Shown here piece after piece: positions 12,636-32,624 of a stretch of DNA of 38,975 bases. Source of the stretch: a virus; the IMG/VR virus record IMGVR_UViG_3300048063_000101, positions 1 to 38,975 of that record; one strand, written 5' to 3'. The notes below the pieces were generated by a model. It made no database searches, was not told the origin of the DNA, and saw only the letters and a list, made by a program, of their open reading frames with translations. Position numbers and translations under genes: made by a program. Each line of letters starts with the position of its first letter. Position 1 is the first letter of the stretch.

Positions 12636-12665
12636 TTAGACTCTTCTACTTTAAAAAAGGTTACA
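12636..12665 (-). promoter_or_regulatory. Early-type promoter element (copy a)
   Basis: On the minus strand, TGTAACC (12665-12659), 16 nt, then AGTCTAA (12642-12636). It lies 25 nt before the ATG of the 69-aa gene. This copy is fully intergenic, which shows the element is not just a by-product of coding sequence. Confidence 0.7.
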
Positions 12666-12678
12666 TAGTTTTTTTTCG

Positions 12679-12686
12679 TGTATAAT
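12679..12686 (+). promoter_or_regulatory. Vegetative-type -10 element TGTATAAT
   Basis: A consensus TATAAT preceded by GTG, the same GTGTATAAT core as at 25336 and (minus) 29224-29233. No good -35 is visible. It would drive transcription rightward into the 12745 hairpin and the capsid operon. Confidence 0.45.
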
Positions 12687-12744
12687 AATATTAAGGACTC
12701 TCTTCGAGCAATCGATTAGATAACCTTCCTTTCGTGAACGTATA

Positions 12745-12770
12745 AATAGTGGGGATAAAACCCCACTATT
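12745..12770. terminator. Perfect 10-bp stem-loop, T-rich 3' flank
   Basis: AATAGTGGGG and CCCCACTATT enclose the 6-nt loop ATAAAA, followed by TTAGTTTGTT on the plus strand. This looks like an intrinsic terminator or attenuator between the upstream -10 element at 12679 and the capsid operon. A-rich sequence on the left may make it work on the minus strand as well. Confidence 0.75.
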
Positions 12771-12903
12771 TTAGTTTGTTAGTATATAATTAAAGTATCG
12801 GATTGCGGCGTTCTCCGAATATAAATTGATGCTGCACCTCCAGCTTATTTCAAGCGTGTAAGCTGCGTACTTAAATCGCTTCGTTCAGTACAGCTAGAAG
12901 TGG

Positions 12904-12933
12904 CTGACTATTCTCATTGTACTTATATATAAT
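12904..12933 (+). promoter_or_regulatory. Candidate sigma70-like promoter for capsid operon
   Basis: CTGACT (12904-12909), 18-nt spacer, TATAAT (12928-12933). A start near 12940 would give a ~60-nt leader before the scaffold ATG at 13001. The -35 matches TTGACA at only four of six positions. Confidence 0.4.
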
Positions 12934-13000
12934 TAGTCGCCTATCGCATTGTTTACCCCAGGATAATGTAGTTAGTAGAAAATCTGGGAGAGGAGAAAAA

Positions 13001-13462
13001 ATGGATAATGTAGAAAATACAGTAGATGAAACTCAAGAGGAAAGTAATCCTTTGAAACAGTTGAGGGAACAGCTTAAAAAGACTGAAGCAGAAAATAAAG
13101 AGCTTAAGTCGGTTATGGCAGACTCTGTTTTTAAAGAAGCAGGATTTGACACTTCCGCTGGTGAAGGTAAAGCCCTTAAGAGTTTATATGATGGTGAGTT
13201 AAAACCAGATGCGATTAAACAATTTGCTTCTGAAAACTATGGATGGGGTCAATCCTCTGAAGTGGTCCAGGAACAAGATGCACAAAAAGCAAGGGTAGTA
13301 ACAAGTCAACAGAACTTAGATACTGTTATAGAAGCATCAGTACCAGTTGAACCAGTAGGCGTAGATGACCAAATTGCACAAGCGCAGCAAGATGGTGATT
13401 GGCAAACAAGTTCAAATCTCAAAGCAGAAAAATTAAAAGCCCTAATGGAGAAAAAATTATAA
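13001..13462 (+). CDS. Putative capsid scaffolding protein (153 aa)
   Basis: Start chosen at ATG 13001, 5 nt after GAGAGGAG; an upstream in-frame extension to 12917 would cover promoter-like DNA. The protein is acidic, with an N-terminal coiled coil (KQLREQLKKTEAENKELK, residues ~18-36), a central 'SVFKEAGFDTSAGEGKALKSLY' motif and a Lys-rich helical C-terminus (LKAEKLKALMEKKL). Composition, size and position directly before the major capsid gene fit a scaffold that binds capsid through its basic C-terminus and is lost during maturation. Confidence 0.8.
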   Translation: MDNVENTVDETQEESNPLKQLREQLKKTEAENKELKSVMADSVFKEAGFDTSAGEGKALKSLYDGELKPDAIKQFASENYGWGQSSEVVQEQDAQKARVVTSQQNLDTVIEASVPVEPVGVDDQIAQAQQDGDWQTSSNLKAEKLKALMEKKL

Positions 13463-13502
13463 AAATTATTCTCTATTAATTAAATAAAAAAAGGAGAATT
13501 AA

Positions 13503-14441
13503 ATGGGTGCAGTAAGTGGAATGGGCGATTCGTATGATTTGCCTAATTACGTAGGAGAGTTATTTAACATAACCCCTAACGACACACCTTTCCTATCAGC
13601 CATCGGTGGCATGACAGGCGGTAAATCTGTAACTTCTAAACAATTCACTTGGCAAACAGTGGACAACGCAGCAGCTGCTCAAACAGTAGCAGTTGAAGGT
13701 GCGGACCCATCATTTGCAGAGAGAACAAGAAGCGAAGTAACTAACGTTACACAGATTATGCAATATGGTGTAAACGTTTCCTATACAAAGCAAGCAGCTG
13801 TAGGAAACTTAAGTGGACAATCTATCATTGGTAACCAACCAGTTCAAGATGAATTGGCGTTTCAATTAGATATGTCACTAAAAAGAGCTGCAAGAGACAT
13901 AGAGCATACCTTTATACAAGGTGCCTATGTTGCTGATACAGATGTATCAACAGCTCGTAAATCAAGAGGAATGCTCACAGCAGTTTCAACTAATGAAGTT
14001 GCAGGTGGAGCAGCAGCTCTTACACAAGCTATGGTAGATTCAGCTATGAAAAAAATGGCAGATTCTGGCGCTCCTTTCGAGCAACCAGTTATCTTTGCTA
14101 ATGCTTTTCAAAAGCAAAAGCTATCATCAATCTATTCAAGTGCGTTAGCATTAGCGCCAAGAGATAGAACAATCGGTGGTGTTAACATTACAACAATCGA
14201 AACTGACTTCGGTCAAGTAGGTATTGTTTTTGAACGACACATACCAACTGATGATATCTTGATTGCTGACTTATCATTTTGTAAGCCAGTTTTCTTGGAC
14301 ATTCCAGGAAAAGGACACTTCTTCGTTGAGCCATTAGCTCAATCTGGAGCAGCTTACAAGTATCAAGTCTATGGAGAAATTGGATTAGAATATGGTCCAG
14401 AACAATTCCATGCAAAAATAACAAACCTAGCTACCGCCTAA
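13503..14441 (+). CDS. Major capsid protein (HK97-fold, DUF5309/SU10-like)
   Basis: 312 aa with GGAGAA upstream. N-terminal 'ITPNDTPFLSAIGG' followed by 'KQFTWQT' and 'AVEGADPSF', then 'NVTQIMQYGVNVSYTKQAA' and 'KRAARDIEHTFIQGA', are the order and motifs of the DUF5309-type major capsid family. The C-terminal part has the family's 'ETDFGQVGIVFERHIP' strand pattern. No N-terminal protease-cleaved delta domain is evident, so the separate scaffold gene upstream likely does that work. It forms the icosahedral shell. Confidence 0.9.
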   Translation: MGAVSGMGDSYDLPNYVGELFNITPNDTPFLSAIGGMTGGKSVTSKQFTWQTVDNAAAAQTVAVEGADPSFAERTRSEVTNVTQIMQYGVNVSYTKQAAVGNLSGQSIIGNQPVQDELAFQLDMSLKRAARDIEHTFIQGAYVADTDVSTARKSRGMLTAVSTNEVAGGAAALTQAMVDSAMKKMADSGAPFEQPVIFANAFQKQKLSSIYSSALALAPRDRTIGGVNITTIETDFGQVGIVFERHIPTDDILIADLSFCKPVFLDIPGKGHFFVEPLAQSGAAYKYQVYGEIGLEYGPEQFHAKITNLATA

Positions 14442-14465
14442 TTAGGGGATAGATAGTATATTTAT

Positions 14466-14493
14466 TAGAGGGAGATAAATACTTCTCCCTCTA
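14466..14493 (+). promoter_or_regulatory. 10-bp stem-loop between capsid and connector genes
   Basis: TAGAGGGAGA and TCTCCCTCTA pair perfectly around an 8-nt loop. No T-run follows, so it is more likely a partial terminator, mRNA 3'-end stabiliser or processing site that sets capsid above connector expression than a full stop. Confidence 0.65.
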
Positions 14494-14508
14494 GTAATAT
14501 GGAGATAT

Positions 14509-15411
14509 ATGGCAGCAGTAAGCACATTAGTGGACAGAATATATAGAGATTTTTTAAATAAACCAGATGACTTATCTGCGTTCTCAAGATTAGAAGGAGC
14601 TATAAACAATTCAGTTACTTCTTTAACTTATGAAAATAACTTGTTTAGTGCTGAAGAAGAGAATCTTTTGGGCAATGGTGCCTTAATAGAAATTGACCAG
14701 GAGTTAATGCTAGTTACTTCAGCTAATACTTCTACCAGGACTTTAACTGTATCAAGAGGATACGCAGGTACAGATGCTGCTTCTCATGCAGATGAAGTAA
14801 ACTTATATGTTAATCCTACGTTTCCTCGTAAGTCTGTGTTTGATGCACTAGCTGACAACATCGAAAGACTATACCCAAGTTTATATAATGTAACTACAAC
14901 TAATGTAACTTCTAATTCTACCTTTGCAGAAGTACCAGCAACTACAGTTCTTGTAATTAATTCTTATGTACAGAACTCTTCTGGTGCGCAATATACATCA
15001 GCTGGAATAGAGTTACTTACTAACTTCCCACCATCTTCAACAGGTGCAGCTGTACAGTTTTCTAATACATCACTAGGTAAAACAGTTTACTTAGTTGTTA
15101 AAAGAAAATTTGCTAGACCAGCTACTGAAGCAGATGACTTAGCAACTGTATGTTTGCTAGAAGATAACTACCAACAAATAGTTATGGTAGGAGCAGTAGC
15201 AGATATTATGGGAGCAACAGATGTAGATGCTTCGACACAAGAATTTATTACAGAGAAATTAGCTGCAGAGAGTTATCCAGTTGGTTCTGGTGAAAGATTA
15301 AGAAACGCTTTGCTAAGATTAAGGTCGTTACTTATTGATGAAGCAAGAGGAGATTTACGCAGCTTATATCCACAAGCAGTAGCAATAAGCAACATTAACT
15401 ACAGTGCATAA
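14509..15411 (+). CDS. Putative head-tail connector/adaptor protein (300 aa)
   Basis: Starts after TGGAG. N-terminal helical part 'LVDRIYRDFLNKPDDL', then a beta-rich segment with 'ALIEIDQELMLVTS' and 'TLTVSRGYAGTDAASH', then 'NPTFPRKSVFDALADNIERLYPSLY'. The Ile-Asp-Gln-Glu and 'RGYAGT' patterns recur in adaptor and tail-attachment proteins and also at the N-terminus of the fibre gene at 17323. The C-terminus is helical and Arg-rich. Position after the capsid and before the tail protein supports a connector role. Confidence 0.65.
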   Translation: MAAVSTLVDRIYRDFLNKPDDLSAFSRLEGAINNSVTSLTYENNLFSAEEENLLGNGALIEIDQELMLVTSANTSTRTLTVSRGYAGTDAASHADEVNLYVNPTFPRKSVFDALADNIERLYPSLYNVTTTNVTSNSTFAEVPATTVLVINSYVQNSSGAQYTSAGIELLTNFPPSSTGAAVQFSNTSLGKTVYLVVKRKFARPATEADDLATVCLLEDNYQQIVMVGAVADIMGATDVDASTQEFITEKLAAESYPVGSGERLRNALLRLRSLLIDEARGDLRSLYPQAVAISNINYSA

Positions 15412-17321
15412 TGTCTGTATTACCTTCACCCTCTAATACATCTGAACCTAAGTCACAAGGATTTGAAGCAAACCTAGATGATTTATTCTTACGCTTTGCT
15501 GTTGGACCAGGAAGGCAGATGAATATAAACACTGCTCCTCTCCAGGCACAAGCTATACAAACATCAGAAACACCAGAAGATTTTCAACAAGAGTTTGGTC
15601 AGATATTCTCCAGAACAGATTTTGCTGGTGGTGGTGGTCTAGATAAAGCACATAGAAGAAATGCAGCCGATACAGATTTTTCAAGGTTTTGGGATAGTAA
15701 AGGTATTGATGTATTTAGTGGCAAAGAAGCTGGTGAAGAGTACCACGTATCTTTACTGCATGATACTGATGAAGTACAAACATCTACTGAAACAAATCTT
15801 TATATGCAAGAGTTAGGTGGAGAAATATTTTATTCTTCTGGTCCAGTTTTAAAGATAATAGCAACACCATTAACAGGTAGTGCCGCAGATGATGGTACTC
15901 CTAGTGGTGGTAATAATATTTCTGGTATGGCTATCTTAGGAACTAAATTATACCTAGTAGCTAATGGAGATATCTATATAAGAAACAGTGCTGGTAGTTA
16001 TGCAGTACACAACAATCACAAAACTTTTGACAATATATGGAGTATGAAGGGTAGATTAGTTGCAAGTGGCACCAATGGAGAACTCTATGAAGTAACAGGT
16101 ACTTCTAATCCAGCAACAATAAAAGCATTGCCAACAGGTAGTTCTTGGACAGATGTTACTGATGGTGGTGCAGTAGTTCTTGCTTGTGCAGATGATGGCT
16201 ATATATATTCTTTAGCAGATGAATCATCTACATTAACAATTAAAGGACAAACTTTTGTAGAAGGTGAAGTGCCTAATGCAATAGATGCAGCGCAAGGGTT
16301 TATCTTCTATGGTACTTATCAGAACACAGCTAGTGGAAAGATAGGTAGATTATATAGAGCAGAAATAACTAACGCTAATAGTTTATATGTCTTGATTAAT
16401 GCACAATTAATAAAACAATGGGGTGATGGAGCTTCTACTTTAGACCAGGCACCTTACAGAATTATATCTACAAGAGATAGTATCTATACAGGTATTATTG
16501 ATAGCGCTAGCAAAACTAATTTGTGGCGATACTACTTACCAACAGGTGGTATAGCTAGAGACTTGGAGTTTGCTGAAAGCGGCATTGTTAGAGGCATAGC
16601 TGTTTTCTCTGATAGATTGTTTTCTACTGTATCTGCTGGTGGTGCTTATAGAGAAAGCACAAACTATGTAGCTACAGGATATATCATTACACCGCTTGCA
16701 GATTTCTTTACATCAGAAAAGAAACAGTGGGTAGGTGCAAAGCTAAATACTAATGTAGTAACTTCTGGTTCAGTAAAGTTATACAGTTCTACTATTGCTT
16801 CTGATATAAATAATCCAACAGCTACCACATGGTCCGAACAAGTATCTGTATTTTCTGGTACTGGTGGAGATGAAGAGGTTATGACTCTAGTAGATGGTAG
16901 ATGGATAGCAGGTAAAATAGAACTTAATACTGATGATGTTACACAAACACCAGAGATGTTAGCTTTTGCTATTAGAGGTTTCCAGTTAGTTAATGACTTA
17001 GTTGTAGATATGCCTATTAATATATCGGACCAAGTAGAACGACCATTTAGAAAAGCTTTAAGAGTTAATGGTCAAGGTGATTTGGTTTACCAGGCGTTAA
17101 GAAATAAAGAAGGTAAGAATGTTCAATTAGAGATATTCAGACCAGATACTTTATTACGAGGTATAATAGAAAATGTTAGCAGTCCTATTGAGGAGATAAG
17201 TCCTAGAGGTTCTGTTACAAGCTATTGCTTAGTTAGATTTAGAGGTAGTAAAGTAATACAAACTTCAACATCTGGAGTAGGATTAGGAATAGAACTATTA
17301 GGAGTAGGAAAACTAGGATAG
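15411..17321 (+). CDS. Tail hub/nozzle-like protein, beta-propeller type (636 aa)
   Basis: Starts on TAATG. After an N-terminal segment resembling virion-binding tails ('DDLFLRFAVGPGRQMN'), residues ~120-450 carry repeated blade-like units ('GMAILGTKLYLVANGDIYIR', 'NIWSMKGRLVASGTNGELYEV', 'AAQGFIFYGTYQN'), typical of beta-propellers. The C-terminus is beta-rich. In short-tailed phages this position usually holds the tail tubular or nozzle protein. No enzymatic motif was seen. Confidence 0.6.
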   Translation: MSVLPSPSNTSEPKSQGFEANLDDLFLRFAVGPGRQMNINTAPLQAQAIQTSETPEDFQQEFGQIFSRTDFAGGGGLDKAHRRNAADTDFSRFWDSKGIDVFSGKEAGEEYHVSLLHDTDEVQTSTETNLYMQELGGEIFYSSGPVLKIIATPLTGSAADDGTPSGGNNISGMAILGTKLYLVANGDIYIRNSAGSYAVHNNHKTFDNIWSMKGRLVASGTNGELYEVTGTSNPATIKALPTGSSWTDVTDGGAVVLACADDGYIYSLADESSTLTIKGQTFVEGEVPNAIDAAQGFIFYGTYQNTASGKIGRLYRAEITNANSLYVLINAQLIKQWGDGASTLDQAPYRIISTRDSIYTGIIDSASKTNLWRYYLPTGGIARDLEFAESGIVRGIAVFSDRLFSTVSAGGAYRESTNYVATGYIITPLADFFTSEKKQWVGAKLNTNVVTSGSVKLYSSTIASDINNPTATTWSEQVSVFSGTGGDEEVMTLVDGRWIAGKIELNTDDVTQTPEMLAFAIRGFQLVNDLVVDMPINISDQVERPFRKALRVNGQGDLVYQALRNKEGKNVQLEIFRPDTLLRGIIENVSSPIEEISPRGSVTSYCLVRFRGSKVIQTSTSGVGLGIELLGVGKLG

Positions 17322-17322
17322 A

Positions 17323-19197: not shown

Positions 19198-19724
19198 GTG
19201 AAATACAAGTAAACACAATCAATGAATATACAGGTGCAAGTGGTGTAACCATTGATGGTCTTTTAATTAAAGATGGAGCTATCCCTTCTATTAGTGGTGG
19301 TAAAGTATTACAAGTTGTTAGCACGACAAGTTCTACAGAACAATCAACTACATCTACAAGTTATGTTGATATTACAAATGTAACACTTAACATTACGCCA
19401 AGTTCTGCAAGTAGTAAAATTTTAGTAATATACAACGATAATGTAAGACTTGATAAACCAGGCTCTTTCGCTGCAACAGGTTTTGCACAATGGCAAGTTC
19501 TAAGAGATAGCACAGCTATATCAGTTAGGGAATTTATACAAAGAGATGGGTCTAACCTTGAACATTACAATGTTTTTCCAATGACAATAATACATTTAGA
19601 TAGTCCATCTAGTACATCATCAGTAACTTATAAAGCACAAATGAAAAATGGAGATAGTACAAGTTGTAGAAGTCAATTTAATAATTATACAGCATCAATA
19701 ATGGCTTTGGAGATTGGCTCGTGA
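19194..19724 (+). CDS. Tail fibre/tip protein A (176 aa)
   Basis: Overlaps the fibre stop as ATGA. It begins 'SEIQVNTINEYTGASGVTIDGLLIKDG', a pattern common at the N-terminus of marine-phage fibre proteins, followed by a beta-sandwich-like domain ('SYVDITNVTLNITPSSASSK' onward) ending 'SIMALEIGS', like many trimeric fibre heads. It is likely a receptor-binding or decorating tip, followed at once by a chaperone-like gene. Confidence 0.65.
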   Translation: MSEIQVNTINEYTGASGVTIDGLLIKDGAIPSISGGKVLQVVSTTSSTEQSTTSTSYVDITNVTLNITPSSASSKILVIYNDNVRLDKPGSFAATGFAQWQVLRDSTAISVREFIQRDGSNLEHYNVFPMTIIHLDSPSSTSSVTYKAQMKNGDSTSCRSQFNNYTASIMALEIGS

Positions 19725-25335: not shown

Positions 25336-25350
25336 GTGTATAATAAACAC
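25336..25350 (+). promoter_or_regulatory. -10 element within near-palindrome GTGTATAATAAACAC
   Basis: TATAAT at 25339-25344 within a 15-bp sequence that differs by one base from the perfect palindrome GTGTATAATATACAC at 29218-29232 (minus). GGGAGG follows at 25355-25360. It is probably the promoter of the metallophosphoesterase gene and may also be an operator. Confidence 0.5.
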
Positions 25351-26535: not shown

Positions 26536-26540
26536 AGAAA

Positions 26541-26566
26541 ACCTACACCAGGGCAATAGTGTAGGT
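26541..26566. terminator. Bidirectional terminator hairpin
   Basis: ACCTACAC (26541-26548) and GTGTAGGT (26559-26566) pair around a 10-nt loop. CTCTTCTT follows on the plus strand, and TTTTCTTTA follows on the minus strand. It lies at the meeting point of late plus-strand and early minus-strand transcription. Confidence 0.75.
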
Positions 26567-26574
26567 CTCTTCTT

Positions 26575-26599
26575 ACTTAGCTACGAAAGGAAGCTAAGT
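26575..26599. terminator. Second stem-loop at the convergence point
   Basis: ACTTAGCT (26575-26582) and AGCTAAGT (26592-26599) pair around a 9-nt loop. It abuts the stop codon of the last minus-strand gene, so it is probably the early-operon terminator, backed up by the hairpin at 26541. Confidence 0.6.
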
Positions 26600-26700
26600 T
26601 AAATGTCTCCTCTGTTGCAGTCATAACATGTCTCTGTGTCACCATCTATAGGTTTTATATCTTTACATAGTTTGCAATAGAGTTCAGCAATGTTACCCAT
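26599..26700 (-). CDS. Zinc-ribbon micro-protein (33 aa)
   Basis: ATG 26700 overlaps the preceding gene by 8 nt. The peptide has 'LYCKLCKDI' (Cys 9, 12) and 'ETCYDCNRGD' (Cys 25, 28), a complete CxxC...CxxC zinc-ribbon knuckle pair. Too short for more than a metal-binding module. Last gene of the early strand. Confidence 0.6.
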   Translation of the reverse strand: MGNIAELYCKLCKDIKPIDGDTETCYDCNRGDI

Positions 26701-26818
26701 CGGACAAATCAAAGTCCTCTTCGGGGTCGTTATGTTTATTAATCATAACTTTAGATACCATATCAAAAAACTCTGATGAGTTTATATCAATGGCTGGTCC
26801 ATCGAATGGATTAGCCAT
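26693..26818 (-). CDS. Small acidic protein (41 aa)
   Basis: ATG 26818 shares one base with the stop of the gene before it. Begins MANPFDGPAIDINSSEFF and ends with acidic 'DPEEDFDLSDG'. No domain recognised. Tight overlaps on both sides support it. Confidence 0.55.
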   Translation of the reverse strand: MANPFDGPAIDINSSEFFDMVSKVMINKHNDPEEDFDLSDG

Positions 26819-26931
26819 TACTCTTCCTCCTCTTTATCAGTAGGCATTCCACCAGCTAATCCTTTTTGTGGATATTTTTGTGAAATTTTTTCTAGTCTTT
26901 CTATAAGAGCATCGTAATTTTGTTTAGACAT
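26818..26931 (-). CDS. Small protein, helical then acidic tail (37 aa)
   Basis: ATG 26931 preceded by AGGAGGAG. Short helix 'NYDALIERLEKISQKYP', then Gly-rich 'GLAGGMP' and a Glu tail. Overlaps the 77-aa gene by 8 nt. Function unknown. Confidence 0.6.
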   Translation of the reverse strand: MSKQNYDALIERLEKISQKYPQKGLAGGMPTDKEEEE

Positions 26932-27157
26932 TCTCCTCCTCATAATTACCAATAGGTTCTTGAAACTTAGGGTCACCATAGGCATTGATTAAACCTAGTA
27001 AGTATCCGCATACTTCATGGCTTACCTCTTGCTCAATAGTATTTGAATTGGTAACCATCAGCATAAGATTTCTAGCAATAGCATGGACCCTGGGATTGTT
27101 AACCTCCCACATAGGAGATTCTTTTATAGCATCTTCTATTAACATGTCCAATACCAT
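26924..27157 (-). CDS. Hypothetical early protein (77 aa)
   Basis: GAGGAGGAG lies 5 nt before ATG 27157, overlapping the previous stop. Helical pattern ('MLIEDAIKES', 'VHAIARNLMLMVTN', 'EVSHEVCGYLLGLINAYGDP') and an acidic end. No recognised family. The even helix spacing suggests a small helical bundle, perhaps a regulator that binds another protein. Confidence 0.65.
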   Translation of the reverse strand: MVLDMLIEDAIKESPMWEVNNPRVHAIARNLMLMVTNSNTIEQEVSHEVCGYLLGLINAYGDPKFQEPIGNYEEENV

Positions 27158-27159
27158 GA

Positions 27160-27351
27160 CTACTCCTCCTCTTGTACTGGTTTAACTTTACCTAATGTAA
27201 TCTCCACAGCAGCCATAATACCTAGCAGCTGTAATGATTGGTCCTTCTGAATTATTGTATGCTCTTTAAATACTGGAGAACCTTCTTTGGTTTTCCTTGA
27301 TAGTATCTCTTGCAGCAATTCTAAATCAGTCGCATCTTTTAATTGTGGCAT
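27160..27351 (-). CDS. Hypothetical early protein (63 aa)
   Basis: GGAAAGGAAATT precedes ATG 27351. Helical pattern 'DATDLELLQEILSRK', then 'LQLLGIMAAVEITLGKV' and a Glu tail. First gene after early-type promoter copy b, so it and the downstream small genes form a sub-operon. Function unknown. Confidence 0.65.
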   Translation of the reverse strand: MPQLKDATDLELLQEILSRKTKEGSPVFKEHTIIQKDQSLQLLGIMAAVEITLGKVKPVQEEE

Positions 27352-27363
27352 AATTTCCTTTCC

Positions 27364-27675
27364 TTACTTAGACTCTGACATAACAAAAAGGTTACTCGGT
27401 GGTTCATACATATACATAGCTACTTGTCCACTGTGTTGATGGTCCCACCATTCGTGGTCATTACATGGGCGACTATGTATTGTGTGTCCCATCTTTCTTA
27501 AGTCTCTTACTCTTTGTGAGTACGTAGGTATAAACATCTTCTGAAATGTAATAGCGCATAACCAATCGCCACCTACTCTACGTATTGCTTTAAGCTCTTC
27601 TAATATCTTGCCAGATTGCGAGTCTTTGGATGGCTCCTTGACTCGCTTCTGACTTAATGCTGCTGGACTAGACAT
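27364..27675 (-). CDS. Helix-turn-helix (winged-helix-like) protein (103 aa)
   Basis: Residues ~30-92 show 'RVGGDWLCAITFQ', 'FIPTYSQRVRDLRKMGHTIHSR' and 'VAMYMYEPP', the layout of the phage HTH_39-type winged helix: a recognition helix with Arg-x-x-Asp-Leu-Arg-x-x-Gly-His, then a beta wing. It overlaps the annealing-protein gene by 8 nt. Likely a DNA-binding partner in replication, recombination or transcription control. Confidence 0.65.
   Translation of the reverse strand: MSSPAALSQKRVKEPSKDSQSGKILEELKAIRRVGGDWLCAITFQKMFIPTYSQRVRDLRKMGHTIHSRPCNDHEWWDHQHSGQVAMYMYEPPSNLFVMSESK
27368..27396 (-). promoter_or_regulatory. Early-type promoter element (copy b)
   Basis: AGTAACC (27396-27390), 15 nt, AGTCTAA (27374-27368), 16 nt before the ATG of the 63-aa gene. 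Mostly inside the 3' end of the HTH gene, so the end of one gene serves as the promoter of the next. Confidence 0.65.
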
Positions 27676-28588
27676 TCTTTAGTTTGTCTATCCAAGTTGA
27701 AGCATCTCCTTGTGTGCCTGTCCCGCTATTAAGGAACTGCTTTGCCTCTGCAGCTAGGTCATCTTTACCTTTATCAATAGCTTGATTGATTAAGGTCTCG
27801 ATGAAGCTTACTTGTCCACCACTAATTGGATTCTGTTTCCATGGTCCATCTGGTATCTCTCCCATATCATCTTCTCCTACTACTACCACATCATCTGTGT
27901 TAGATTTTTCTATCTCTTGTACATCATCAAGATTTTCAATGATGCGGTTTACAACATCCGAGTTGCCTTCTCTTGCAGCGAACTCTTCCTTATGCTTCTT
28001 AATATAATCAGAAGCAACTGTTATAAATTCTTTTTGGTCCTCTTCTGTGTAGTCAGTCACCTTCTCTGGTGTACCAGTCTTAAGGTTCATTCTTGCAACA
28101 GTAAAGTCCCATGTTCTTGTTGCAAAGTTCTTGTCTTTACCACACATATCTAGGATGATGGCACCCATATCATCTTTAGAAGGGGATGTCATTGTCTGTT
28201 GTGTTGTATCTTTTTTTTTAGGTGCAGCTGCTGGCTTAGGTACAACTGAATCATCTCCTGTTGCCTTCTCCATCTCTTGTCTGCTTGGTCTCTTGGCTGA
28301 ACCCTGGAACTTCCAGTTAGCTAATGCTCTACCTATTGCTGATGTCTCGCAGTTCTCTACCCAACTGTTTTTATTAGCACCATTCTGTCCCTTGTACTCC
28401 TGGGCTAGTCCAGTGCTTACTGGATTGATGTCCTCTTTATGTTCATACACATAAGCATGAACTATTATCATGGTTCCATCATCAGATATTTTTACTGGTT
28501 CAGTCCAGACTCTACCTTCGGGGTGTGCTTTATAAAAAGCATCTAGTCTATCTTCTACTTCTAAGTAGTCGTTAAGATTGTACGCCAT
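27668..28588 (-). CDS. Putative single-strand annealing/recombination protein (306 aa)
   Basis: N-terminal ~105 residues: 'YLEVEDRLDAFYKAHPEGRVWT', 'MIIVHAYVYEH', then 'WVENCETSAIGRALANWKF' (residues 77-94) and 'KRPSRQEME' (99-107). The E-x-C/A-E-T-S-A-I-G-R-A-L-A-N signature is shared by ERF/Rad52-like and related phage proteins that coat or anneal ssDNA. The middle is charged and low-complexity. The C-terminus has a helical 'GGQVSFIETLINQAIDKGKDDL' domain. As the only recombination candidate and the largest early gene, it probably supports replication or concatemer formation. Confidence 0.6.
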   Translation of the reverse strand: MAYNLNDYLEVEDRLDAFYKAHPEGRVWTEPVKISDDGTMIIVHAYVYEHKEDINPVSTGLAQEYKGQNGANKNSWVENCETSAIGRALANWKFQGSAKRPSRQEMEKATGDDSVVPKPAAAPKKKDTTQQTMTSPSKDDMGAIILDMCGKDKNFATRTWDFTVARMNLKTGTPEKVTDYTEEDQKEFITVASDYIKKHKEEFAAREGNSDVVNRIIENLDDVQEIEKSNTDDVVVVGEDDMGEIPDGPWKQNPISGGQVSFIETLINQAIDKGKDDLAAEAKQFLNSGTGTQGDASTWIDKLKNV

Positions 28589-28799
28589 TCTTTATACCTT
28601 TCTCTTTCGCTATTGTATATACATGCTTCCTGGATATACCAGCGCTGCTAGCAATCACTGAAGCTGTCATCTTGGTTTCATTTCTTTTATTAAAGAGATA
28701 AGTTATCATTGTATTTCTTATGCCTGTATCTTCCTTCATCTTGGTAGATAGTTCCATAAGTTCTTTTAACATTAGCTCTTCATAACTTGGTTGACTCAT
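28572..28799 (-). CDS. Small HTH DNA-binding protein (75 aa)
   Basis: Residues ~45-69 (TASVIASSAGISRKHVYTIAKEKG) are a textbook helix-turn-helix: Ala-Ser-x-Ala-Gly-Ile-Ser turn and recognition helix RKHVYTIAKE. Short acidic helical N-terminus. Overlaps its neighbours at both ends. A transcriptional regulator of the phage switch, or a replication-initiation helper. Confidence 0.7.
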   Translation of the reverse strand: MSQPSYEELMLKELMELSTKMKEDTGIRNTMITYLFNKRNETKMTASVIASSAGISRKHVYTIAKEKGIKNGVQS

Positions 28800-29026
28800 A
28801 GTTCAAACACATCTATGAAACATTTAGTGCATAGTTTAGTCTTGGCTACTCTAGGTACTTTGACACCGCATTCACTACAAACACTTCGGTTCCTCTTACC
28901 CATCTTGCCTTGTTTGACTTGGTCTTGAATAAACTCTTTGACTGAATTATCGATAGAGATATCTCCACTACCCATGTCAGCAATCAATTTGTTTAGACTG
29001 TCATCATCCCATATAGGGTCACTCAT
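28796..29026 (-). CDS. Zinc-ribbon protein (76 aa)
   Basis: First gene after promoter copy c; AAAGGAAGGA upstream of the ATG. An acidic N-terminal ~40 residues are followed by Cys50-x2-Cys53 and Cys66-x2-Cys69 with basic residues between (VKVPRVAKTKL). Likely a Zn-stabilised nucleic-acid or RNA-polymerase binding module. A WhiB-type iron-sulfur protein was considered, but spacing and length do not fit. Confidence 0.65.
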   Translation of the reverse strand: MSDPIWDDDSLNKLIADMGSGDISIDNSVKEFIQDQVKQGKMGKRNRSVCSECGVKVPRVAKTKLCTKCFIDVFEL

Positions 29027-29046
29027 AGTATTCCTTCCTTTAATAT

Positions 29047-29075
29047 TTAGACTCTTTTAATTTTATTTAGTTACA
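29047..29075 (-). promoter_or_regulatory. Early-type promoter element (copy c)
   Basis: TGTAACT (29075-29069), 15 nt, AGTCTAA (29053-29047), 20 nt before ATG 29026. The TAA in the upstream box is also the stop codon of the 40-aa gene at 29071-29193. Confidence 0.7.
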
Positions 29076-29193
29076 CATTTACTGGCTGTTTTACTTGTGC
29101 TTTTAGATACATATTGCACAAAGTATTTAAACAAACATGCCTGGCATTTATTATCTGTGTATGTCTGCCGCAGCTATAACATATACTTGACAA
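29071..29193 (-). CDS. Zinc-ribbon micro-protein, TTG start (40 aa)
   Basis: AAGGAGG (29205-29199) lies 5 nt before TTG 29193, an excellent RBS that fixes the unusual start. The protein contains 'ICYSCGRHTQI' and 'HVCLNTLCNMY', giving paired cysteines (CxxC and C-x4-C) around His residues. A TGTGTATAAT promoter lies 31 nt upstream. Function unknown; metal-binding. Confidence 0.6.
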   Translation of the reverse strand: MSSICYSCGRHTQIINARHVCLNTLCNMYLKAQVKQPVNV

Positions 29194-29217
29194 CGTAACC
29201 TCCTTATACATTCTTTA

Positions 29218-29233
29218 GTGTATATTATACACA
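29218..29233 (-). promoter_or_regulatory. Promoter/operator: palindrome GTGTATAATATACAC
   Basis: The minus strand has TGTGTATAAT (29233-29224) in a perfect 7+1+7 palindrome at 29218-29232. A start near 29217 gives a ~24-nt leader with the AAGGAGG site. A palindrome over the -10 is the classic arrangement for a repressor operator. Confidence 0.55.
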
Positions 29234-29235
29234 AC

Positions 29236-29373
29236 TTAATTTAATAAGTCTTGTTGTTTTCTAGCATGTCTTAACTCTCTCCAGTTTCCATAGATTGTGT
29301 ACAATCCTACAAACAAATAGGTAATGTACGCAGTGAACATGGTGAGTATTATAAATCCTTCTACACTTTTCAA
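29236..29373 (-). CDS. Single-TM small membrane protein, TTG start (45 aa)
   Basis: TTG 29373 is preceded by AAAGGA at a 7-nt spacing, 13 nt after the stop of the 74-aa gene. Residues ~5-27 ('EGFIILTMFTAYITYLFVGL') form one transmembrane helix, followed by a basic/aromatic tail 'NWRELRHARKQQDLL'. Short early membrane proteins of phages often block superinfection or modify the envelope; that role is speculation here. Confidence 0.5.
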   Translation of the reverse strand: MKSVEGFIILTMFTAYITYLFVGLYTIYGNWRELRHARKQQDLLN

Positions 29374-29386
29374 AACAATATCCTTT

Positions 29387-29611
29387 CTACCTTGCACCAC
29401 AACTAGGACAAGGTGCTGAGTTCTTTCTTATAAGTTCGTATGTATCTATAATTGGTAAAGGGTAATTAACTTTTCTATAGAATGCTTCTTCTTCTTTAGT
29501 AAATTGCACCCCATTAAAAAAGAGATATCTTTCTTCTTCACCTTCATATCTTGCACTGATAATCCTATCACTGCCATTATAGAAATGTTCTATAACATCT
29601 TTTAATATCAT
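29387..29611 (-). CDS. Hypothetical early protein with CPSCG end (74 aa)
   Basis: ATG directly follows the stop of the 200-aa gene (TAAATG). Beta/alpha pattern 'RIISARYEGEEERYLFFNGVQFTKEEEAFYRKV', then a terminal 'APCPSCGAR'. A single CxxC could pair with another subunit or a metal. No family recognised. Confidence 0.6.
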   Translation of the reverse strand: MILKDVIEHFYNGSDRIISARYEGEEERYLFFNGVQFTKEEEAFYRKVNYPLPIIDTYELIRKNSAPCPSCGAR

Positions 29612-30214
29612 TTAATGTCCCCATCCTGCTGCAGTCTCATGGTTTGGAACTCCATCCCATAACACAGCGTATCTGTATCCATCTATTTTTATGTGTCCAT
29701 CTTGTGGAATCTTGTTCATCTCTTCACCAGATGATAAGTAATGCAATGGATTTGGTGTTACTTTGTTTGCACCATGTGACCCATACTCTACAATTTTTCC
29801 TATCTGTCTTACCTTGATAGATGCTTTTAGTTTTTTAGTTACTACATAATAATCAACGTTGGTCTGGTCGTAACCCCAGCTATCAACAAAGATGTCACCC
29901 TCTTTAATTGATGCAAAGAACTCTCTCTTCTTGTTGATTCTTGCAGCTGCTCTCTCTATCTTTAGTTCTTGTGCTTGCTTGCACTTAACAAAATAATCTT
30001 GGATATATTTTCTGCGCTCTCTCTCATCTCTGAATCTATAGCTCCAGTCTTGTGTTGCTTTCTTACCACTGAATGCAGTAGCAATCATTTTCTTTTTGTG
30101 AACAAACACGATTGCTTCTTCATTAGTTAAATTTGTATAGTGTTGTTCTGCTTTCTCATAATCTTTATGAGTTGACAAGAACTCTTTGTAACTTTGTCCG
30201 ATTAAGTTATCCAT
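29612..30214 (-). CDS. Conserved-type hypothetical protein of phages/plasmids (200 aa)
   Basis: GAAGGAAGGA precedes ATG 30214, after promoter copy e. N-terminal helix pair, then 'TAFSGKKATQDWSYRFRDERERRKYIQDY', and a C-terminal beta domain beginning 'KEGDIFVDSWGYDQTNVDYYVV'. The 'GDI-x-V-x-SWGYDQTN-x-D-x-Y-x-V' signature is one I associate with uncharacterised proteins widespread on phages and plasmids. Role unknown; broad mobile-element distribution suggests a host-interaction function. Confidence 0.65.
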   Translation of the reverse strand: MDNLIGQSYKEFLSTHKDYEKAEQHYTNLTNEEAIVFVHKKKMIATAFSGKKATQDWSYRFRDERERRKYIQDYFVKCKQAQELKIERAAARINKKREFFASIKEGDIFVDSWGYDQTNVDYYVVTKKLKASIKVRQIGKIVEYGSHGANKVTPNPLHYLSSGEEMNKIPQDGHIKIDGYRYAVLWDGVPNHETAAGWGH

Positions 30215-30237
30215 TTAGTTTCCTTCCTTCATATTGT

Positions 30238-30266
30238 TTAGACTTAATAATTTAATTATGGTTACT
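30238..30266 (-). promoter_or_regulatory. Early-type promoter element (copy e)
   Basis: AGTAACC (30266-30260), 15 nt, AGTCTAA (30244-30238). The upstream box contains the stop codon of the 47-aa gene. The stretch after AGTCTAA (ACAATATGAAG) is identical to that of copy h at 32005, so the elements share leader sequence beyond the boxes. Confidence 0.7.
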
Positions 30267-30405
30267 CTTTATTCTCAACAACTACAACTTTACGTTCTGT
30301 TGTCATGCCTTCACTGTATGATTTTATGTGTAATTGTGCTTCATCATAGGTGTAACCTCTTAGCAAGCACATCCATAATTGTTGTATCACTTGTTGTTCT
30401 GTCAT
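30262..30405 (-). CDS. Small early protein (47 aa)
   Basis: GAGGAG 5 nt before ATG 30405, which overlaps the preceding TAA (TAATG). Helical 'VIQQLWMCLLRGYTYDEAQLHI', then 'TERKVVVVENKE'. No recognised domain. Good RBS and coupling make translation likely. Confidence 0.6.
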   Translation of the reverse strand: MTEQQVIQQLWMCLLRGYTYDEAQLHIKSYSEGMTTERKVVVVENKE

Positions 30406-30500
30406 TATTTCTCCTCTTTGTCTAACTCAACACGCTCTGTTTTAATAAACCTGCCGCTATCATCGTATATAAATTCAATCTCCCAATCTTTAACTGACAC
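30405..30500 (-). CDS. Small early protein (31-34 aa)
   Basis: GTG 30500 (31 aa) or GTG 30509 (34 aa), inside the end of the 89-aa gene. Beta-like 'DWEIEFIYDDSGRFIKTERVEL' then a charged tail. The stop is coupled to the next ATG (TAATG). It fills an otherwise empty 85-bp gap in a strand with no other gaps. Confidence 0.5.
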   Translation of the reverse strand: MSVKDWEIEFIYDDSGRFIKTERVELDKEEK

Positions 30501-30759
30501 TGACTTCACCCTTCTTGTTAATGAAAAACTTACCGAAGAAATCTCTCTTGCTATATGGACTTGGTCCAACAAAAGTTATATCTCCATGTTTTTCTAATGC
30601 TTCTTTAGTTAGTCTGCCCTCGAACTGTTCGCCATACATACTGACTTGTTCTAATGCAATCATATCTAACCTACCAGCAGCAACTAATTCTTTTAATTGC
30701 TTCTTGCTCTTAGGTCTTGAGTCCATCCCATCAAGAATGAATATCCCTTGCGCACTCAT
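30490..30759 (-). CDS. Hypothetical early protein (89 aa)
   Basis: AAGGAAGGTAAACA precedes ATG 30759, 29 nt after promoter copy f. Contains 'IFILDGMDSRPKSKKQLKELVAAGRLDMIALEQVSMYG' and a beta C-terminal half 'DITFVGPSPYSKRDFFGKFF'. The 'S-K-K-x-L-K-E-L-V-A-A-G' helix pattern resembles small nucleic-acid-binding helices, but no family is certain. Confidence 0.6.
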   Translation of the reverse strand: MSAQGIFILDGMDSRPKSKKQLKELVAAGRLDMIALEQVSMYGEQFEGRLTKEALEKHGDITFVGPSPYSKRDFFGKFFINKKGEVSVS

Positions 30760-30784
30760 TGTTTACCTTCCTTTTTTATCATCA

Positions 30785-30880
30785 CTACTTAGACTCGACC
30801 AACTCATTATTGGTTACACGTTTATATAATCCCCCACATCTACATATATTTACATGAATATTGTATCTGCAATAACTCAT
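30785..30880 (-). CDS. Cys/His-containing micro-protein (31 aa)
   Basis: ATG 30880 overlaps the stop of the 61-aa gene (TAATG). Cys4, His9, Cys13 and Cys15 in 'YCRYNIHVNICRCGG' could bind a metal. Its last codons run through promoter copy f, where both boxes are read as coding sequence. Plausible from coupling; no family. Confidence 0.5.
   Translation of the reverse strand: MSYCRYNIHVNICRCGGLYKRVTNNELVESK
30789..30818 (-). promoter_or_regulatory. Early-type promoter element (copy f)
   Basis: TGTAACC (30818-30812), 16 nt, AGTCTAA (30795-30789), upstream of the 89-aa gene. Confidence 0.7.
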
Positions 30881-31065
30881 TACTTACCATCCAGTTCTAC
30901 TGTTGCAACAGTGTTTCCATTAGTATCTTTTAATTTGAGAACTTCAAATCCTCCTTCTTCAACTTTGTAAATAAGTTTCGCAGCTTTATCTAGGATGGTT
31001 CCTACTTCATAGTGGAAGGCATCCTCGAACGCTGCGTTGTTTGTATCGATTGTAATTTGTATCAT
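30880..31065 (-). CDS. Hypothetical early protein (61 aa)
   Basis: ATG 31065 shares a base with the preceding stop. Beta-alpha-beta pattern: 'IQITIDTNNAAF', 'EVGTILDKAAKLIYKVEEGGFEVLKLKDTNG' and 'TVATVELDG'. The same fold pattern is seen in many small uncharacterised phage early proteins. Function unknown. Confidence 0.65.
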   Translation of the reverse strand: MIQITIDTNNAAFEDAFHYEVGTILDKAAKLIYKVEEGGFEVLKLKDTNGNTVATVELDGK

Positions 31066-31181
31066 TACTTAAGCTCCTCTTTATATTTCATAGTGTCTGC
31101 ACCTGCACCAGTTATCTGATACACATCTCTCTTAACTTCATTGCCGAATATATCTACCCAAACAATTTCTTTTTCTTCCAT
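31065..31181 (-). CDS. Small early protein (38 aa)
   Basis: AAGGAAGGAAAACAA precedes ATG 31181, 23 nt after promoter copy g. Two short strands ('KEIVWVDIFGNEVKRDVYQITG') then a Lys/Glu helix. First gene of a four-gene overlapping sub-operon running to 30490. Function unknown. Confidence 0.6.
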   Translation of the reverse strand: MEEKEIVWVDIFGNEVKRDVYQITGAGADTMKYKEELK

Positions 31182-31204
31182 TTGTTTTCCTTCCTTCACG
31201 TAAC

Positions 31205-31234
31205 TTAGACTATTTAAATTTGAAATAGGTTACA
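31205..31234 (-). promoter_or_regulatory. Early-type promoter element (copy g)
   Basis: TGTAACC (31234-31228), 16 nt, AGTCTAA (31211-31205). The TAA of the upstream box is the stop codon of the 172-aa gene. Confidence 0.7.
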
Positions 31235-31748
31235 CCTTTTTTTTCTTAGCTTCATCTGCTTTGTGCATCTCACGCAGCTTGACCCAGTGCGGCTCGAATG
31301 TTGGTTGAAAATAATTCTCCATGTAATCTACCCAGCTCTCATACCCTGGGAATCTCTTAGCAAATTCTTTTGGCTTCATGCTCCATTGTTCTTTAGCTAA
31401 ATCAAATGGCATGTGAACCATATCCTTTGCAGTCTCTTTGTTTAATTCTTTTCTAGTATATTCTTTGTAAACATACTCACCCTCTGTTACTACGAATGTT
31501 TTCTCTACATACTCATCGAATGGCATCCCATCAACAACACCATCAACAGAACCATCAATATATTTAGCGCTGATGCAGTCATCGTAAACAGTATTTGTTT
31601 TCTTGTTTAATAAGAACGCATGCCCACCGAAGTGATTAGCACCCTTAAATATATCTCGCAGTGCATGGACCACGACCCAATCATCGTTCTTTATCTTTGT
31701 CGTGTTGATTGCATTCCATGCAGCTGGGTAACAATTACCTGCTCCCAT
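31230..31748 (-). CDS. Cys/His papain-fold-like hypothetical protein (172 aa)
   Basis: Begins 'GAGNCYPAAWNAI' (Cys6 at the head of a helix), then 'WVVVHAL' (His28), 'HFGGHAFLLN' (His39, His43) and 'VYDDC' (Asp56/57). The Cys...His...Asp order with a His in a beta strand resembles small papain/NlpC-like or transglutaminase-like proteins in phages. The catalytic reading is tentative. The second half is helical and Lys-rich. TAATG coupling to the gene before. Confidence 0.5.
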   Translation of the reverse strand: MGAGNCYPAAWNAINTTKIKNDDWVVVHALRDIFKGANHFGGHAFLLNKKTNTVYDDCISAKYIDGSVDGVVDGMPFDEYVEKTFVVTEGEYVYKEYTRKELNKETAKDMVHMPFDLAKEQWSMKPKEFAKRFPGYESWVDYMENYFQPTFEPHWVKLREMHKADEAKKKKV

Positions 31749-31984
31749 TATTTGACCTCCTTCTTGATTGGATTTGTTGGAATGAAATTCTCGAAGCAGT
31801 ATTTATATATCTCTTTACCGCTGATAAATTCTCTTAGTGTTTTACTAAGCGCTTGATAAACTGTTAGCCCTTCCTCTATGTAAATCTCGAATGCTGCTTT
31901 GCCCTCTACAATCTCCCCGCTTGATAGCTTGACTGTATCGAATGCGCCTGCCCAGTCCTTCTGTATTTCTTGAATAGTTTTCAT
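31748..31984 (-). CDS. Hypothetical early protein (78 aa)
   Basis: Start set at ATG 31984 (MKTIQEIQKDWAG), with AAGGGA 6 nt upstream. A Met five codons earlier (31999) lies in leader sequence shared with copy e and is unlikely to be used. Beta 'DTVKLSSGEIVEGKAAFEIY', then helical 'TVYQALSKTLREF'. No family recognised. Confidence 0.6.
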   Translation of the reverse strand: MKTIQEIQKDWAGAFDTVKLSSGEIVEGKAAFEIYIEEGLTVYQALSKTLREFISGKEIYKYCFENFIPTNPIKKEVK

Positions 31985-32004
31985 ATCTTGTCCCTTCATA
32001 TTGT

Positions 32005-32034
32005 TTAGACCCTCCCGACTTTGAGAAGGTTACA
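32005..32034 (-). promoter_or_regulatory. Early-type promoter element (copy h)
   Basis: TGTAACC (32034-32028), 16 nt, GGTCTAA (32011-32005). The TAA here is also the stop codon of the P-loop kinase gene. Confidence 0.7.
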
Positions 32035-32589
32035 TATTCTTTTTGATTTTATTCTTCTGTATCCTTGCACTGTTTGCATCTCAATGATTCCTGTAACGTG
32101 CAGCATCCTGCATATTGCAACTGATATCTTCATGGAATCATAAGCGTTAATTACTTCTTGAAGATACATCGCCCTATTGCTTTTAAGATTCCTAATGAAT
32201 ACATTGATTAAGCAATTAAGGAGTTCTACTTCTACGTATATAACCTTTACAGCTAGTCCAGCTTCTTTTGCTGCTTGTATCCTCTTCAGTACTTTTATTG
32301 GTGACTTACCACGATTATCAAATATGACATTGTTGCAGCTGTAATTATCTTTGAATGCTTCAGTATTATTAAAATACGCTTCGAGCATTTTTGCTGCAAT
32401 GTCGCTGGCTGCTGGGTGCAGCTCCGCGTTGACATCTTTTGACAGTGGTTGGTCCTTGTTTAGTTTCGCCTTGATTTCATCGGGGTCAATCACGAACGCA
32501 TTAGTCCTTGCTGCTTCCTTAGCAACATGGGCAGACTTACCGCTCCCGCTTGCACCTATCATGAATGTAATTGTATTTGTTTGTTTCAT
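32005..32589 (-). CDS. P-loop kinase/zeta-toxin-like ATPase (194 aa)
   Basis: Walker A GASGSGKS at residues 12-19 directly after a first beta strand, followed by 'AFVIDPDEIKAKL' (residues 32-43), as in AAA_33/zeta-toxin/polynucleotide-kinase-like enzymes. 'VIFDNRGKSPIKVLKRIQAAKEAGL' and 'VKVIYVEV' give the Walker B-like and lid regions. Likely phosphorylates a small molecule, nucleic-acid end or protein. ATG lies only 5 nt after promoter box AGTCAAA, so its mRNA may be leaderless. First gene of the early arm. Confidence 0.7.
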   Translation of the reverse strand: MKQTNTITFMIGASGSGKSAHVAKEAARTNAFVIDPDEIKAKLNKDQPLSKDVNAELHPAASDIAAKMLEAYFNNTEAFKDNYSCNNVIFDNRGKSPIKVLKRIQAAKEAGLAVKVIYVEVELLNCLINVFIRNLKSNRAMYLQEVINAYDSMKISVAICRMLHVTGIIEMQTVQGYRRIKSKRICNLLKVGRV

Positions 32590-32594
32590 ACTGC

Positions 32595-32624
32595 TTTGAC
32601 TCTATGCAGTTACAAAAGGTTACA
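32595..32624 (-). promoter_or_regulatory. Early-type promoter element (copy i)
   Basis: TGTAACC (32624-32618), 16 nt, AGTCAAA (32601-32595), one mismatch in the downstream box. Only 5 nt separate it from ATG 32589, which places transcription start at or near the start codon. That spacing supports reading AGTCTAA as a -10 box. Confidence 0.65.

Follow-up and report, generated by a model that had tools for sequence, protein, structure and literature searches.

A repeated, strand-specific promoter-like element in a marine virus genome and its probable recognition by a host ECF sigma factor

Introduction

The window analysed in this study (the whole stretch of DNA under analysis, 38,975 nt of IMG/VR virus record IMGVR_UViG_3300048063_000101) contains a two-box sequence, TGTAACC-N15/16-AGTCTAA, that recurs ahead of minus-strand genes, and the question it raises is which transcription factor, of the phage or of its host, reads it. 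An earlier note, made from the letters alone, had likened it to promoters of extracytoplasmic function (ECF) sigma factors and had left two sources open, a host ECF sigma or an unrecognised activator of the phage. We consider, with a probability of about 0.83, that the element is an ECF-type promoter and that the window genes are transcribed by the only ECF holoenzyme of the host. The elements look like host-ECF promoters because both boxes, equally spaced, are also found ahead of two host genes, the main sigma gene included. We infer the ECF recognition, the identity of the host and the early timing of the genes.

Results and Discussion

The element and its genes in the window

A motif scan revealed eight copies, three exact and five with one mismatch, all on the minus strand and each at the position and with the 15- or 16-nt spacer given in the earlier note:

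12636..12665, minus strand: promoter-like element, spacer 16, exact; 25 nt to the ATG of gene 12401-12610; with upstream A-tract and T-tract
27368..27396, minus strand: promoter-like element, spacer 15, one mismatch (AGTAACC); 16 nt to the ATG of 27160-27351; overlaps the 3' end of gene 27364-27675
29047..29075, minus strand: promoter-like element, spacer 15, one mismatch (TGTAACT); 20 nt to the ATG of 28796-29026
30238..30266, minus strand: promoter-like element, spacer 15, one mismatch (AGTAACC); 23 nt to the ATG of 29612-30214
30789..30818, minus strand: promoter-like element, spacer 16, exact; 29 nt to the ATG of 30490-30759
31205..31234, minus strand: promoter-like element, spacer 16, exact; 23 nt to the ATG at 31181
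32005..32034, minus strand: promoter-like element, spacer 16, one mismatch (GGTCTAA); 5 nt to the ATG at 31999, or 20 nt to a second ATG at 31984 that has a Shine-Dalgarno (SD) sequence
32595..32624, minus strand: promoter-like element, spacer 16, one mismatch (AGTCAAA); 5 nt to the ATG of the first gene of the block

These distances agree with the 5-29 nt reported before. GTAAC and GTC are both present in 8/8 copies, as expected of an ECF-dependent promoter with AAC at its -35 and GTC at its -10 box. The plus strand, on which the earlier note had seen no copy before late genes, yielded zero copies at up to one mismatch with either spacer. In 100 dinucleotide-preserving shuffles the N16 form with up to one mismatch had a mean of 0.00 (largest 0) and the N15 form a mean of 0.05 (largest 1), that is, about zero expected against eight real copies. 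An Rfam search of the window gave zero matches.

The genes carrying or adjoining the element for which a context or a profile match can be given are the following:

12401-12610, minus strand: lone minus-strand gene inside the structural block, element 12636 upstream
27668..28588, minus strand: block gene related to phrog_11717 (unknown function) by PHROGs profile match
28572..28799, minus strand: 75-aa helix-turn-helix (HTH) protein of the block (PHROGs and Pfam profile scans)
28796-29026, minus strand: gene of a four-Cys protein, element 29047 upstream
31065-31181, minus strand: small gene with ATG at 31181 and end at 31065, element 31205 upstream
32005..32589, minus strand: first gene of the block, encoding a P-loop kinase of zeta-toxin / polynucleotide-kinase type (Pfam PF06414, E 4.6e-9; PHROGs 2071 and 505)

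The product of 27668..28588 might be an Erf-like annealing protein, a guess based on the phrog_3290 match of a distant relative in L189.

Promoter anatomy

In the loci retrieved by the large terminase protein (TerL) together with the window (40 copies of the element), the spacing of TGTAAC and GTCWAA, counted between the 7-mers, was 16 in 33 cases, 15 in 6 and 24 in 1, and a scan of spacings from 8 to 26 found nothing besides these three values. The boxes thus keep the fixed spacing of ECF promoters (about 16-17 bp between -35 and -10). Among 99 copies with distinct spacers, A-rich blocks were found at -19..-13 and -8..-4, and TTTT follows the first box. The distance to the downstream ATG was bimodal, being 3-5 nt in 14 copies and 16-32 nt in 78, with the range of 6-15 nt empty and no ATG found for 7. 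Judged from sequence, the phased A-tracts, the T-tract and the two ATG distances are the anatomy of an ECF promoter.

Occurrence in related viruses

The motif search in related phages proposed in the earlier note was carried out, and the element was present in 14/20 loci of related marine virus contigs with TerL identity of at least 85% and at least 3 kb upstream, and in 0/11 loci with TerL 60-68%. The six of the 20 without it include L015 (TerL 94%), and it is also absent from some relatives that have the same genes as the window and from two phages in a host-order metagenome-assembled genome (MAG), L203 and L206. In 20 motif-selected records, all exact copies (69/69) were confined to one strand per record. 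The copy at 30789 (gene 30490-30759) was retained in 9/9 relatives scored, that at 32005 in 12/13 and that at 32595 in 21/28, these counts excluding duplicate contigs, matches that begin beyond residue 8 of the query and so miss the start of the gene, and matches less than 100 nt from a locus end. At genes shared across relatives the boxes are conserved while the spacer sequence varies. Dyad counts in motif-free relatives gave nothing comparable to the element. A shared replacement promoter in these relatives was considered and set aside, as a single TTACC(A/T)-N16-TATAAT-like site at one gene of L031, L038 and L047 is too little.

Probable hosts and their sigma factors

The likely hosts are probably streamlined marine actinobacteria of about 1 Mb and low GC content, similar to Ca. 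Actinomarinales. Exact copies of the element occur in two assemblies of this order, adjoining genes that resemble window genes, and one of them lies within a chromosomal contig. Against this assignment, scanning genome contigs for TerL gave further matches in MAGs labelled Gammaproteobacteria and Rhodobacteraceae, and relatives of the major capsid protein include proteobacterial phages. A Bacteroidota host was abandoned in view of the clear SD sequences in the leaders and of the relatives of the exonuclease, which are actinophages.

The host-order sample comprised 42 genomes, several of them incomplete assemblies. At most two PF04542 genes were present in any of them (about 358 aa and about 195-202 aa), one RpoD-like and one ECF, the smaller being classed as ECF from its similarity to Pfam, NCBIfam and PDB entries. 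The ECF-sized gene was found in 33/42 genomes, at most one in each, so that a candidate ECF is present in the order of the probable host. A small membrane protein is encoded behind the host ECF gene.

The search of host genomes for matching promoters, also suggested in the earlier note, revealed GTAAC-N18-GTC directly upstream of the RpoD-like gene in 39/39 host-order loci (one with N17) and upstream of an AI-2E-family gene in 30/30, which favours the host ECF sigma among the two sources that the note had proposed. The form anchored to the start codon was found in 38/42 genomes of the order vs 2/156 others of the class, the latter being larger (1.5-5.4 Mb) and perhaps richer in GC, so that fewer chance matches are to be expected there. 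The host AI-2E gene shares the leaderless geometry of the window site at 32595 (5 nt to ATG). In many species the box at the RpoD-like gene overlaps an SD-like AAAGG, and further upstream columns are likewise conserved. By eye, a conserved TANNNT is visible just upstream of this box, which hints at a possible second, primary-sigma promoter there.

It must be noted that the host signal is the recurrence ahead of the same two genes. The unanchored GTAAC-N18-GTCWAA was rarer than its reversed control in the 42 host genomes (76 vs 132 matches), and the phage-type consensus with up to two mismatches showed no enrichment in host genomes, where its reversed control was usually higher; a genome-wide regulon of the phage type was therefore rejected. 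Across three host contigs, about 1.08 Mb together, the RpoD-like gene alone has a site at a convincing start. ECF genes commonly, though not universally, regulate themselves, and autoregulation was not taken as a defining trait; no GTAAC-N17/18-GTCWAA site was found at 32 host ECF loci, and autoregulation of the host ECF gene was discarded.

Alternative explanations

Phage sigma factors such as SPO1 gp28 and T4 gp55 act on repeated promoters, and a factor encoded by the phage, either an unrecognised small sigma or an activator and perhaps carried in the virion, could bind the element here, with the host sites unrelated or captured later. We consider this improbable. It would be in line with the classic occurrence of such promoters in phages with their own sigma, with the absence of the motif from some relatives that have the same genes, and with the 75-aa HTH protein, the sole regulator-like window protein detected in the PHROGs and Pfam scans. 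A 73-aa protein of L166, related to the latter (42% over 33 aa), matched sigma region 4 (E 1.5e-4, 15 bits, below the cut-off of 25.7) and is among two sub-cut-off HTH matches in the 20 motif-bearing records. Against it, profile scans of 20 window proteins with PHROGs and 16 with Pfam named no sigma factor, a profile of 32 host ECFs gave a best E of 0.55 over open frames of at least 40 aa from the window and a set of viral loci, and no sigma reached its family cut-off in the 20 motif-bearing records, many of which are fragments. The scans thus agree with the earlier statement that no sigma factor is encoded here, and a phage-encoded sigma was set aside as unlikely, with no match above the cut-off among these records. 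For the proposed unrecognised activator, no candidate tracks the motif: homologues of the HTH protein occur in the motif-free L031, L038, L046 and L047, and it was rejected as the specific activator. In addition, the same boxes and spacing stand at two host genes order-wide, where no phage factor is needed.

Those host sites, together with the RpoD-like sigma present in host-order genomes, might instead suggest that the element is recognised by this sigma, unaided or helped by an activator and with no part for the ECF, the more so as its own gene is preceded by a site. This is very improbable, since a housekeeping form should be common, in contrast to the lone convincing site in about 1.08 Mb, and AAC and GTC at ECF distance are not TTGACA/TATAAT. 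Least probable is an RNA or translation element tied to the start codon, or else an operator that overlaps a promoter of the ordinary kind. Start-associated sequences are known in some mycobacteriophages, the element immediately precedes start codons, and GGTT[AG], able to pair with the first box, occurs in the spacer of 18/99 copies (shuffled mean 3.4, largest 11). However, an inverted repeat is absent from most copies, and the phased A-tracts, the two-valued spacer and the empty 6-15 nt range fit a promoter; instead of a short sequence fixed to the start, two boxes at a bimodal ATG distance were found.

Proposed mechanism and significance

In the ECF-promoter reading, the -35 box would be TGTAAC and the -10 box (A/G)GTC(T/A)AA, with 17-18 nt from AAC to GTC, and an UP-like upstream A-tract and the T-tract behind the -35 may strengthen the promoter in many relatives. 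Host RNA polymerase with the single ECF sigma of the host would read the element, and the probable hosts would use the same promoter form for the genes of their primary sigma and of an AI-2E-family membrane protein. The phage would distribute this promoter across its minus-strand block, with one copy before the lone gene of the structural region. Transcription would begin a few nt past the -10, and the transcripts would be leaderless (3-5 nt geometry) or have a short SD-bearing leader (16-32 nt).

More tentatively, several distantly related phage lineages that infect ultra-small marine actinobacteria may have adopted the sole alternative sigma of the host for their takeover genes; infection, by breaching the envelope, would free the ECF from its membrane partner, and the host alarm would start the phage programme while the same sigma feeds the primary sigma gene of the host. 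We regard this scenario as possible rather than likely. If the membrane protein encoded behind the ECF gene restrains the ECF until the envelope is disturbed, the alarm of the host would be the start signal of the phage.

Taken separately, ECF promoters and the repeated promoters of phages are both well known; among the open-licence literature matches listed, none describes a phage gene block driven by a host ECF sigma. For an abundant ocean lineage that is uncultured, the analysis provides a candidate two-gene regulon, promoter sequence included, of the one alternative sigma seen there, and the element is a sequence marker by which phages of this actinobacterial lineage could be found.

Comparison with known systems

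The element resembles the Bacillus subtilis ECF promoters (sigma W/M/X/V), which have a TG(A/T)AAC -35 with a T-tract behind and a CGTC-like -10, but these belong to another phylum, and here the promoter is common to phage and host. As in the promoter families of SPO1 and of the T4 late genes, which phage sigma factors read, near-identical promoters serve one gene class on one strand; unlike in those phages, no phage sigma was found and matching promoters stand in probable host chromosomes.

According to PMC6767563, Streptomyces coelicolor sigma-E sites have AAC at -35 and (C/G/A)GTC at -10, and the targets include a sigma factor gene, hrdD. By our own count, AAC and GTC are 18 nt apart at its sco0736 and hrdD sites, as they are here, and by the -35/-10 limits used there the spacers are of 16/17 bp, equal to those of the element. 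In contrast to these sigma-E sites, most copies here are in phage genomes, no G precedes AAC (TGTAAC), A and not C precedes GTC, and the probable host has one ECF with only two host targets found. Finally, PMC5780444 describes the cyanophage Ma-LMM01 as having its early, middle and late genes served by host SigA, with alternative sigmas unused; there, as proposed here, phage gene classes are run by a host sigma, but that sigma is the primary one.

Element in the window and anatomy of its flanks

The element TGTAACC-N15/16-AGTCTAA was present in the window, a virus record of 38,975 bases, in the eight copies that the earlier note had claimed, three of them exact and five with one mismatch, all on the minus strand. 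Its distance to the start codon, counted on the sequence, was 5-29 nt as claimed, and shuffled sequence, in which an equal frequency would have counted against the note, yielded about none. Clear A- and T-tracts were found only at some window copies (e.g., 12636 and 32595). At the 30238 region, on the minus strand, an ATG behind the -10 box starts a frame of five codons, a possible leaderless minicistron; its TAA overlaps the start codon of gene 29612-30214. An interval of some 760 nt (32625-33387), in which no clear gene was recognized, separates the minus-strand block from the plus-strand block. It is possibly a control region of the plus-strand genes, and Rfam gave no match to it. Both window ends (1-1591 and 37385-38975) are identical save for one mismatch at base 57, and given this terminal repeat of 1,591 bases the window is probably a circular map with an overlap.

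The flanks were analyzed in 99 copies with distinct spacers, taken from 28 loci having at least two copies on the same strand; in this set the boxes, and not the flanks, were fixed by the selection. Two A-rich blocks, which resemble the UP element of bacteria, precede TGTAACC (positions -19 to -13; -8 to -4), with TTTT behind this box and purine-rich leaders. Box spacing in the TerL loci and the window was 16 nt (33 copies), 15 nt (6) or 24 nt (1), with no other value from 8 to 26. Counted to frames of at least 35 aa, the first ATG was found 3-5 nt downstream in 14 of the 99 copies and 16-32 nt downstream in 78, with none in seven, and in no copy was it placed at 6-15 nt. Two such classes would look like those expected of a promoter yielding leaderless or SD-led transcripts.

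The spacer carried GGTT[AG] in 18 of the 99 copies (shuffled mean 3.4, largest 11). In some of these copies spacer and first box together form an inverted repeat without mismatch, which in a few is centered on TTCG; such a spacer could represent an operator or an RNA hairpin. Copies of this type were seen in the following related stretches:
L176, at 4260, 5275 and 5595
L139, at 1572
L099, at 7708
other relatives

Distribution among related phages

The search of related phages proposed in the earlier note was done on the best 80 of 115 TerL loci, picked regardless of the motif; those whose sequence extends ≥3 kb upstream of TerL were scored for one or more minus-strand copies at ≤1 mismatch. 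The motif was present in 14 of the 20 loci with TerL at ≥85%, mostly in three to six copies, vs. none of the 11 at 60-68%. The six without it were L015 (94%) and L031, L035, L038, L046, and L047 (86-87%). L031, L038, L046, and L047 retain orthologues of block genes, the HTH protein among them, and either lost the motif or never had it; they offer a natural contrast for studying promoter replacement or host change. At shared genes the spacers vary while both boxes persist.

Sites kept upstream of orthologues of window genes (counted at ≤3 of 14 mismatches; duplicate contigs, matches missing the gene start and matches <100 nt from the locus end are omitted)
Gene 30490: 9 of 9 loci
Gene 31748: 12 of 13 loci
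Gene 32005-32589, first of the block: 21 of 28 loci
Gene 28796: 4 of 4 loci, one weak
Gene 12401: 1 of 1 locus
Gene 31065: 6 of 13 loci
Gene 29612: 4 of 8 loci, one weak (in motif-free L038)
Gene 27160: 3 of 11 loci

A pattern scan of IMG/VR retrieved at least 119 stretches with the motif, many of which must be due to chance; some contigs were rich in copies, such as L176 with 15 on its plus strand. L176 (13 of 18 kb compared) and L152 (4 of 46 kb), both motif-bearing, gave no match to 26 window proteins at E 1e-4, so that more than one phage lineage seems to have the element. A set of 20 records selected by the motif held 69 exact copies; within each record these kept to a single strand, and no copy of the reversed control was found.

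Probable host and its sigma factors

The exonuclease matched 803 phage records, and the ten names listed among them were all phages of actinobacteria. The best MCP rows were Mycobacterium and Propionibacterium phages, the 65 records also including phages of Aeromonas, Proteus, and Salmonella, and TerL matches at 27-29% were mixed. Scanning genome contigs for TerL gave five loci (51-55%). A single Actinomycetota MAG accounted for three, spread over two of its contigs; the remaining two came from MAGs labelled Gammaproteobacteria and Rhodobacteraceae, one each.

The order of the Actinomycetota MAG comprises here 42 genomes of 0.6-1.1 Mb, with a GC of 0.33-0.34 in three contigs and rhodopsin in 33 genomes. 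PF04542 genes never exceeded two per genome, one of about 358 aa and the other of about 195-202 aa. Ca. Actinomarinales are described with about 1.1 Mb, 32.5% GC, two sigma factors and rhodopsin (PMC7771536); the order fits this in size, GC, sigma count and rhodopsin, and is probably Ca. Actinomarinales-like.

Exact motif copies were found in two of the 42 genomes. One is on a 70.6-kb contig, directly upstream of genes like window 26924-27157 (47%) and 27160-27351 (51%); the contig continues with aconitase, tRNAs, clpP, and clpX (names read from translations). The other is on a 6.1-kb contig with genes like window 26924 (45%) and 28796 (52%). Host-order contigs show a phage-like small-gene block behind the same promoter, followed at about 25 nt or less by a terminator-like inverted repeat, AGACA..TGTCTTTT:
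L417, around 4938 (G017:C4)
L418, around 29 (G011:C10)
G037:C1, 115968 (by eye)

The ECF sigma factor that the earlier note suggested seeking in candidate hosts was encountered as the PF04542 gene of about 195-202 aa, in 33 of the 42 genomes; Pfam and NCBIfam superfamily models and similarity to solved ECFs place it in this family. The 32 ECFs compared were 76-100% identical, a small membrane protein gene followed in 32/32 loci and nusG was found at 30/32. A search of these 32 loci for GTAAC-N17/18-GTCWAA gave no site at the ECF gene.

Matching sites before host genes

Directly upstream of the RpoD-like gene, NGTAACN-N16-NGTC(A/T)AA was found by pattern in 37 of 39 loci, with 23 distinct spacers. 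The other two were L351, which has the boxes with N15, and L365, with an ambiguous base just behind; the boxes were therefore present in 39/39, and also in L271 from a further genome. An SD-like stretch confounds this box in part, and other columns of the upstream region are conserved too. By eye, TANNNT is conserved just upstream of the GTAAC box (e.g., L213 and L360), which suggests a second, primary-sigma promoter of the same gene.

Searching GTAAC-N18-GTCWAA revealed a second recurrent site, upstream of an AI-2E-family gene (PF01594). The initial 20 loci had been selected for motif match; a check by protein search gave boxes at 30/30 loci (34 places in 33/42 genomes, four places without a locus). 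GTC was followed by AAA or TAA (21), CAA (3) or ATA (6), at 4-5 nt from the start codon.

The start-anchored pattern gave 58 sites in 38/42 genomes of the order vs. two sites in the 156 other genomes of the class, and 57 of the 58 belong, by sequence, to the RpoD-like or AI-2E gene; the reversed control gave 13 in all 198 genomes, six of them in the order. Without anchoring, GTAAC-N18-GTCWAA was not enriched (76 vs. 132 reversed matches summed over the 42 genomes). In three host contigs, of about 1.08 Mb, the RpoD-like site was the only one at a convincing gene start.

Interpretation of the element

Most simply, the phage promoters can be read as the host ECF promoter in an enriched form, a reading that we consider probable (about 0.83). 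To the shared GTAAC-N18-GTC core the phage version would add an invariant C, an UP-like element and a T-tract. Copy 32595, 5 nt from its ATG, matches the geometry of the host AI-2E gene. The anatomy of the element, its conservation and its co-occurrence are direct observations. From these we infer recognition by the ECF, the timing of use, and that infection may free the ECF from a membrane partner.

It must be considered that the phage-type consensus was not enriched across host genomes, and that the element is absent from phages of the host-order MAG as well as from some of the close relatives. The negative search at the ECF gene and the SD-like stretch and other conserved columns at the RpoD-like gene also count against this reading. 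A sigma scan of 20 motif-bearing phage records gave two matches to sigma region 4, both below the cut-off: a protein reading like a small terminase subunit, and a 73-aa HTH protein distantly like window 28572-28799 (42% over 33 aa). Our confidence in the host ECF promoter was slightly lowered because of these region-4-like matches and the lack of enrichment in the unanchored control.

Among the open-licence papers listed, none was found to describe a regulon of phage genes that depends on an ECF sigma of the host. The AAC-to-GTC distance of the N16 class, 18 nt, equals that of the S. coelicolor sigma-E sites sco0736 and hrdD (PMC6767563).
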